Assembly: GCA_905221325.1 (NCBI GenBank)
Contig: CAJNCS010000005.1
Location: forward strand, 62,001 to 126,000
Direction: 5' to 3'
Origin: a bacterium
GTDB lineage: Bacteria; Bacillota; Bacilli; Lactobacillales; Streptococcaceae
Length of the DNA: 64,000 bases
Numbering within the stretch: the stretch's first letter is position 1; every line of letters begins with the position of its first letter. Below are positions 63,380-63,674 of this stretch, one piece after another. The translations under genes were made by a program, and so were the position numbers. The notes below the pieces were generated by a model. That model was not told the origin of the DNA. It searched no databases and saw nothing but the letters and a program-made list of their open reading frames with translations.

Positions 63380-63393
63380 GAATACTGCTCAAG

Positions 63394-63434
63394 CGACCTT
63401 CAATCGTGAAGCACACACGACCTTCAATCGTGAA
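63394..63434 (+). repeat. 17-bp direct repeat in the mnmA leader
   Basis: CGACCTTCAATCGTGAA occurs at 63394-63410 and 63418-63434 with a 24-bp period. The second copy extends to a hairpin CACGA-ccttcaa-TCGTG. Confidence 0.9.
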
Positions 63435-63436
63435 CT

Positions 63437-63593
63437 AGTCATTTCGTTTATCTTTTATTACGTCGTTAACTCGAAATGAGATGCAAGCTGAGCTTGTCTG
63501 ATTTATAACCTCAATCAGTCTCCCAGACTGATTGAGCGAACTCGAGTTATGCCTGCGACTCGTTGCCTAGTCCTAAAAGCAAACGAAAAGACT
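63437..63593 (+). ncRNA. Nested inverted-repeat element in the mnmA leader (structured RNA or miniature element)
   Basis: Four nested or adjacent helices can be drawn. P1 pairs AGTCATTTCGTTTATCTTTT (63437-63456) with AAAAGCAAACGAAAAGACT (63575-63593), nearly complete. P2 pairs TAACTCGA (63467-63474) with TCGAGTTA (63542-63549). P3 is CAAGC-tga-GCTTG (63484-63496). P4 is CTCAATCAGTCT-ccc-AGACTGATTGAG (63510-63536). There is no U tail after P1. The layout fits either a multibranched leader RNA or a foldback MITE; the family is not recognised. Confidence 0.6.
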
Positions 63594-63647
63594 ATACTCA
63601 AAGAAATTCTATTGAAAGTCATAATAAATAGAATTTTGAAGGGTATG
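63594..63647 (+). other. Imperfect 20-bp inverted repeat just before mnmA
   Basis: ATACTCAAAGAAATTCTATT (63594-63613) pairs at 15 of 20 positions with AATAGAATTTTGAAGGGTAT (63628-63647); the inner 10 bp are perfect. It ends 27 bases before the mnmA ATG and would be transcribed in the leader. Confidence 0.6.
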
Positions 63648-63674
63648 AATAAACGAATAGATGGGAGACTTACC

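Follow-up and report, generated by a model that had tools for sequence, protein, structure and literature searches.

A conserved leader RNA of mnmA in Lactobacillales, a candidate translational switch, and its interruption by a nested MITE in a streptococcal allele

Introduction

The thrS operator of E. coli is formed by leader hairpins of the enzyme's own mRNA, which resemble the anticodon arm of the substrate tRNA and lie upstream of the ribosome-binding site. PreQ1-type riboswitches sequester the ribosome-binding site, and in these the pairing between a loop and the Shine-Dalgarno (SD) sequence alternates with a local hairpin. T-box leaders are tRNA-related leader RNAs of Firmicutes, and their family is included in Rfam. 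The s2U34 made by MnmA, the tRNA-specific 2-thiouridylase, acts in the decoding of Lys, Glu and Gln codons.

The mnmA leader described here is similar to the thrS operator in having anticodon-arm-like hairpins upstream of the ribosome-binding site. It differs in that it concerns a tRNA thiolase, carries C at position 33 and has freely varying stems, and the binding of the enzyme is putative. With preQ1-type riboswitches it shares the choice between loop/SD pairing and a local hairpin, and a gene concerned with tRNA modification; in contrast to them, it has no known aptamer, was found at mnmA only, as far as checked, and consists of one or two hairpins with a constant loop. Like the T-box it is a tRNA-related leader of Firmicutes, but Rfam 15 gave no match on the leaders scanned: the whole window was without a match, and permissive scans of 5 + 10 loci placed no family on a leader. 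A known Rfam family was thus rejected.

In the accessible part of PMC9812572, srf-04/Spd-sr37 of pneumococcus is placed at mnmA/mnmG. As Spd-sr37 lies downstream of mnmA by Rfam, it is a different RNA, and the identity of the leader with it was rejected. Spd-sr37 (RF02419) was seen downstream of mnmA at L048:3181-3245, L050:3226-3289 and L059:3185-3248, a second RNA at the next U34-modification gene. Among the titles and abstract openings listed by a search of the open literature, none described leader control of mnmA. Such a leader is also undescribed in the accessible parts of PMC6212727 (RNA-switch section included), PMC12548931, PMC9812572, PMC9426450, PMC12323649 and PMC2864571, and a word search of Weinberg 2010 for mnmA or trmU gave no occurrence.

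Results

Layout of the mnmA leader

The window, i.e. the whole stretch of 64,000 nucleotides that was analysed, ends inside mnmA. The ATG of the gene at 63675 gives a leader of about 289 nt, in agreement with the roughly 290 nt of noncoding RNA proposed by an earlier sequence-only reading of this DNA. The features of the locus are as follows.

63351..63379, + strand: promoter-like site upstream of mnmA, TTGTCT-17 bp-TATAAT with TG before the -10
63386..63413, + strand: conserved leader hairpin 1, GCGA/UCGU stem, outer UGCU/AGCA, loop CCUUCAA (63397-63403); from the fold and stem covariation
63416..63432, + strand: conserved leader hairpin 2, CACGA-CCUUCAA-UCGUG; from the fold, relatives and the CGACCTTCAATCG pattern count
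63421..63425, + strand: CCUUC, which would pair with 63660-63664 (one U.U mismatch) as the 5' side of P4, a proposed helix hiding the SD
63428..63431, + strand: UCGU, 5' side of P3', the alternative helix, opposite ACGA at 63653-63656
63435..63649, no strand: insertion (63435-63645), missing in 18 of 21 fetched relatives, and repeated TGAA (63646-63649)
63438..63592, no strand: TA-flanked MITE with inner module, ends GTC[A/T]TTTCGTTT; TA at 63436-63437 and 63593-63594; multi-copy matches
63474..63538, no strand: inner module with both perfect hairpins of the sequence-only reading; 65 nt, compared with 8 nt in L001
63593..63645, no strand: BOX-like element of 53 bp; its ends ATACTCAAAGAAATTCTAT / ATACCCTTCAAAATTCTAT are imperfect inverted repeats, 14 of 19 positions alike; from sequence comparison
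63653..63656, + strand: ACGA, 3' strand of P3'; partner 63428-63431
63660..63664, + strand: GAUGG, conserved, sharing bases with the ribosome-binding site GGGAG (63663-63667); from motif counts
63675..64000, + strand: mnmA, tRNA-specific 2-thiouridylase, 5' part; the window ends inside the gene

The structured foldback before mnmA is real. The fold of the 289-nt leader reached -80.7 kcal/mol, while 200 dinucleotide shuffles had a mean of -57.05 (sd 4.58; z -5.16) and none of them was as good. All the helices previously marked were recovered: the outer repeat (63436-63449 with 63581-63594, 93% complementary), the 8-bp inner helix (63467-63474 with 63542-63549) and the hairpins 63484-63496 and 63510-63536, the latter from the fully complementary arms 63510-63521 and 63525-63536. 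A 24-nt direct repeat at 63387-63434 (88% identity), absent from the sequence-only reading, is the conserved part of the leader. The elements of the promoter were present as proposed, but its consensus was about as common as in shuffled sequence (4 sites in the scanned 1.5 kb, 3.0 +/- 1.9 in shuffles) and is not significant alone. Relatives share the leader but have diverged upstream of the -10. In a terminator scan of the window leader, the one hit ahead of mnmA on its strand was a hairpin within the MITE.

The inverted repeats belong to a nested insertion

In a leader search over 98 relatives, query 1-49 joined query 261-289 directly in many streptococci, which represents an empty site. Query 53-88 and 154-211 occurred several times in some genomes, and in the nearest alleles (genomes G026 and G032) the two are only about 8 nt apart. 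Among the 30 loci fetched, 21 carry mnmA, and these comprise 18 empty and 3 filled leaders. The inverted repeats at 63435-63649 form a nested insertion, composed of a TA-flanked MITE of about 100 bp that carries a 65-nt inner module, and the adjoining BOX-like element of 53 bp.

The terminal inverted repeats of the MITE, GTCATTTCGTTT / GTCTTTTCGTTT, agree at 11 of the first 12 positions. TA stands on both sides, presumably fitting a Tc1/IS630-type transposase, and the empty site seen in 18 of 21 mnmA leaders belongs to the composite as a whole rather than to the MITE by itself. The matches of a 105-bp MITE probe (E<=0.001, fragments included) were counted in 12 chosen streptococcal genomes and ranged from 0 to 43 per genome: G042 43, G017 38, G007 36, G023 32, G015 31, G011 20, G002 4, G033 3, G026 2, G032 2, G020 1 and G001 0.

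Seven filled alleles (window, L001-L003, L031, L033, L047) have the insertion at one common site. The insert of four of them, 157 nt, consists of the TA-flanked MITE of about 100 bp and the 53-bp BOX-like element; the window allele has 57 nt extra inside the MITE, and L002 has 52 nt extra at another place. The 266-nt insert of L047 aligned with the window insert over its full 214 nt, 208 of them identical, and had 198 identities over 209 nt of the L002 insert; L047 therefore seems to carry both the window-type and the L002-type additions. Pooled over pairs of filled alleles, with gaps excluded, the hairpin stretch was 98.8% identical and the insert 95.9%. The repeated TGAA (63431-63434 and 63646-63649) would fit a target duplication, and the ends of the 53-bp element resemble what we take to be BOX ends.

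Because the probe matches are multi-copy, the nested helices belong to mobile DNA, and they were rejected as parts of a functional RNA. The sequence-only reading had offered either a leader RNA or a MITE, to be told apart by scattered copies in one genome or by compensatory changes before mnmA. For the repeats that it marked (63437-63593), the scattered matches and the empty sites decide for the MITE. The leader RNA exists as well, with compensatory stem changes before mnmA across the order, but it resides in the unmarked flanks, 63386-63434 and 63650-63674. The leader is indeed unusually long here, though only through the insertion; the empty allele has about 74 nt.

According to the available part of PMC3049150, the RUP, BOX and SPRITE repeats of pneumococcus are likewise MITE-like, about 100 bp long, found in nested insertions and located in leaders, and RUP has 107 bp with a mean GC of 27.5%. 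Compared by size and GC, the present MITE was classed as RUP-sized rather than as RUP, since its GC is 37-42% (0.371 in L001, 0.419 in the window) against that mean.

Three further observations were made. Different MITE modules have in common the core GTCTCCCAGAC, or its complement (L002, L047, L212 and 63517-63529 of the window). The MITE end AAACGAAAAGA (63581-63591) resembles the leader's own AAACGAATAGA (63651-63661) at 91%, possibly by chance. In L188, L193, L221, L217, L212, L057 and L195, longer stretches occupy the same place, after the last hairpin and ahead of the ribosome-binding site, and by eye several of these look self-folding.

Distribution of the conserved leader RNA

The two flanks of the insertion together make up a leader RNA of about 74 nt that is common to mnmA of many Lactobacillales. 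It has one hairpin in most genera seen and two in most streptococci, with the loop CCUUC[A/U]. Of 118 streptococcal genomes, 80 contained the pattern CGACCTTCAATCG, and 67 of these had it two or more times on a single strand, whereas the reversed control pattern occurred in 7 of 118; the listed pairs are 24 to 27 bp apart. From 51 streptococcal genomes without the CGACCTTCAATCG pair 40 leaders were fetched, and with a stem of at least 3 bp required, 31 of them had two CCUUC hairpins, 8 one and 1 none. The last is L212, a filled leader whose 361-nt piece contains a BOX-like insert.

When 80 loci were chosen by the MnmA protein alone (74 Lactobacillales and 6 other Bacilli), 59 had, in the 330 nt upstream, a CCUUC hairpin whose stem reached 4 bp or more, compared with a background of 10 such hairpins in the remaining 316,731 nt of the same loci (0.010 per 330 nt). 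L057, L060 and L072 had the same loop on a 3-bp stem. The hairpin was found in none of the 6 other Bacilli and was missing in 12 of the 74 Lactobacillales: Trichococcus (3), Companilactobacillus (4), Lapidilactobacillus, Facklamia, Globicatella, an uncultured Lactobacillus and one bin. As CCUUC was the search word, the hairpin counts are blind to other loops, and the relatedness of the leaders means that these numbers cannot be read as independent events.

R1, a covariance model built on 32 leaders with one hairpin, was run against the order. At E<=0.05, where about 15 matches would be expected by chance, it matched 179 of 295 genomes, covering 57 of 74 genera. More than one match was obtained in 27 of the 179 genomes; among the matches listed (E to 4e-4) there was one second match, L270 in genome G359 (E 3e-4), which has no CCUUC loop. 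The misses listed were all streptococci (20 of 20, with 96 further misses besides), and the two-hairpin form lies outside the model's description. A draw of 200 genomes from the class gave 7 matches, namely 5 other Lactobacillales, 1 streptococcus and 1 genome of another order, the latter two borderline (E 0.008 and 0.006, respectively).

The 70 R1-matched loci that were checked comprised the 30 best-scoring and 40 chosen for diversity, out of 179. The MnmA N-terminal motif was present in 68 of them and stood 3' of the loop in all 38 listed. L167 (E 4e-4) and L180 (E 1.5e-4) are weak R1 matches without the MnmA motif and without the CCUUC loop. The loop CCUUC[A/U] was kept in 79 of 82 model matches, the exceptions being L167, L180 and L075, where the match is misplaced. 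By a loose pattern, 60 of 63 leaders have a -10-like hexamer ahead of the first loop, 15-23 nt away in 45. L219, L224 and L198 keep one CCUUCAA hairpin and have an unrelated hairpin in place of the other (with a GNRA-like loop in L219).

Covariation of the hairpin stems

In an alignment of the 82 matches fitted to the model, 95.3% of the cells pair, compared with 30-49% in slid controls, and double changes occur in 9 of 10 pairs. The double-change cells numbered 43, a figure reached in none of 500 shuffles, which take no account of relatedness and gave 9.3 +/- 4.2. Without fitting to the model, an alignment of 32 leaders gave 15 such cells against 3.7 (0 of 500 as high), and its further pair types numbered only 11 against 9.1 (47 of 500 as high). 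Among 130 distinct CCUUC[A/U] contexts upstream of mnmA, of which many were fetched through a model match and all by CCUUC[A/U] as the search word, a stem of at least 4 bp was formed in 110, compared with 57.6 +/- 3.7 when the 3' arms were exchanged; nine contexts with a stem below 3 bp are probably chance. These contexts contain 21 different loop-proximal stems, for example AGGC/GCCU, AGAC/GUCU, UCAG/CUGA, UUGA/UCAA, ACAA/UUGU and CAAA/UUUG. By its conserved structure and the compensatory changes before one gene, the leader fits the cis-regulatory class, and it presumably regulates mnmA.

GAUGG and the alternative fold

GAUGG was found near the start codon in all hairpin-bearing leaders of the two sets fetched by MnmA alone, 61 of 61 from the 80 MnmA-chosen loci and 39 of 39 from the streptococcal genomes without the CGACCTTCAATCG pair (100/100 together). 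It was present in 3 of 20 leaders without a hairpin in range: in L047 and L212 inserts push the hairpins away or off the piece, and L081 is a Bacillus. In all fetched leaders, GAUGG accompanied 147 of 147 with a hairpin, 1 of 18 without and 10 of 375 other ORFs; the 147 include loci found by a GAUGG-containing model, and L081 is there counted as hairpin-bearing. The start codon itself lies within GATGG in L050-type leaders.

CCUUC can pair with GAUGG except for one U.U. The energies of six computed duplexes were -3.9 to -10.3 kcal/mol, and in one of the six CCUUC paired better with GGGAG. The closed fold was lower in 57 of 71 one-hairpin leaders (L167, L180, L075 and L068 dropped beforehand), with a median difference of -1.4 kcal/mol in a count made with no shuffled control. 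Owing to this small difference, the open and closed folds would be nearly balanced by this energy estimate. The CCUUC/GAUGG core hardly varies and therefore cannot covary; its U.U mismatch is kept. Outside streptococci P3 is conserved, with its covariation unsupported (5.56 against 5.49 shuffled, 274 of 1000 as high; L167, L180 and L075 dropped before the count).

The 60 streptococcal leaders were reduced to 36 distinct hairpin-bearing ones, 19 without UU before GAUGG and 17 with UUGAUGG. A P3' of 3 or 4 bp, which reuses the 3' arm of the hairpin and would free CCUUC, could be formed in 19 of 19 leaders without UU. It had 4 bp in 17 of the 19, against 3.8 +/- 1.6 when the stretch before GAUGG was shuffled (maximum 10 in 500), and double changes were seen in L199 (UUGU/ACAA) and L210 (UCC/GGA). 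With UUGAUGG, P3' was possible even at 3 bp in 1 of 17 only, leaving 16 without it. In these leaders P4 gains two pairs by definition; the informative part is the third or fourth pair, present in 15 of 17. The P4 extension covaries (mean 3.31 against 2.79 +/- 0.15, 1 of 2000 shuffles as high; 16 of the 17 used). The best evidence for the second fold thus comes from streptococci, where a predicted P3' helper helix or a longer P4 is supported.

Effect of the insertion on the window leader

The insertion separates the hairpins from the ribosome-binding site and falls in what would be the loop of P3', the alternative helix; the sequences of the proposed switch on either side are intact. P3' (63428-63431/63653-63656) and P4 (63421-63425/63660-63664) could still form in the window around the insert, which would be a loop folding on itself. 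The fold of lowest energy for the window leader instead pairs the left arm of the MITE with the ribosome-binding region, and mnmA expression may for this reason be lowered in the window allele.

Discussion

Upstream of mnmA, the window holds a conserved leader RNA into which a MITE has been inserted. The reading we prefer, with confidence at about the middle of the scale, is a translational switch of mnmA in many Lactobacillales, with MnmA itself as the likeliest factor. In state A the leader would form one or two CCUUCA(A) hairpins and leave the ribosome-binding site free; in state B the loop strand CCUUC would pair with GAUGG at the ribosome-binding site and shut translation. Control would be exerted at translation, because the RNA reaches the ribosome-binding site, and would probably be autogenous, because the loop resembles the anticodon loops of MnmA substrates. 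The two-state switch is supported but not proven; MnmA as the ligand and the sign of control are what we infer from the loop and the gene.

The conserved structure could also be explained without any sensing. Hairpins that merely protect the 5' end of the mRNA or fix a low translation rate would be in line with the -10-like hexamer shortly before the first loop and with the three leaders L219, L198 and L224, where one hairpin is exchanged for another structure. Such a cap needs no fixed loop, so the constancy of the loop (79 of 82) while the stems change, and of GAUGG alongside it (100 of 100), argues against this explanation, which we consider unlikely. That the leader was only lengthened by a transposon and regulates nothing accords with the MITE matches and the empty sites; it is hardly credible, as the conserved element is present in insertion-free leaders and across an order. 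Very improbable, too, are a DNA operator and an N-terminal extension of MnmA, both of which were rejected. ACGA-N7-TCGT is palindromic, but the arms vary with compensation around a constant middle, the reverse of an operator; the GTG frame is open in L006, but the 24 to 27 bp spacing and indels break it between species.

A genuine translational switch with another input, i.e. a tRNA, a small molecule or another RNA-binding protein, is a serious if tentative alternative. Two-state folds look like metabolite or tRNA leaders, and a hairpin-stabilising ligand would directly activate. The leader loop is moreover complementary to the tRNA-Phe anticodon loop UUGAAG, and the tRNA-Phe loop UUGAAGC was seen; to our knowledge, tRNA-Phe is not a substrate of MnmA, which counts against this input. 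An aptamer would have to be one small hairpin, and among the matches listed no second gene appeared at a strong score, the second match of G359 lacking the CCUUC loop.

MnmA appears the likeliest partner because the strong matches that were checked precede mnmA and because the loop contains U34-U35-C36-A37 of tRNA-Glu. The anticodon loops of tRNA-Glu and tRNA-Lys agree with the leader loop at 5 of 7 positions, and those of tRNA-Val and tRNA-Gly equally well; the leader has C where the tRNA has U33, the loop is 8 nt in many genera, and tRNA-Gln stood outside the comparison. Complexes of MnmA with tRNA-Glu are known (PMC5372745, accessible part). Spare MnmA would bind its own message via the anticodon-arm-like hairpin, holding MnmA synthesis down. 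If state A is 'on', a hairpin-stabilising ligand would activate; therefore, repression by MnmA needs a steric block or a modification of the loop. The guess of the sequence-only reading that tRNA modification is sensed may be near the mark, and for its other two guesses, arginine and sulfur state, this analysis found no pointer.

A more specific form of MnmA control, which we regard as unlikely, is that MnmA thiolates the loop U of its own mRNA, a covalent mark that would report spare thiolation capacity and close the switch. The loop uridine matching U34 is the one facing U in CCUUC/GAUGG, and this mismatch is kept wherever both motifs stand. An s2U:U pair, like s2U:s2U, is stabilised. The 2-thiolation would strengthen the U.U contact, tipping a nearly balanced RNA into the closed state; in the available part of PMC10870715, s2U:s2U is given as stabilising a duplex about like A:U, and U:U in place of A:U as costing almost 4 kcal/mol.

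The window suggests a route by which a structured RNA may survive transposon insertion, namely as a self-folding insert in the loop of a switch. A small, order-wide leader dedicated to mnmA makes the control of this gene directly testable. A tRNA-modification enzyme controlled through an anticodon-like hairpin would be unusual, and the thiolation reading, if true, would amount to an enzyme-written epitranscriptomic feedback switch.
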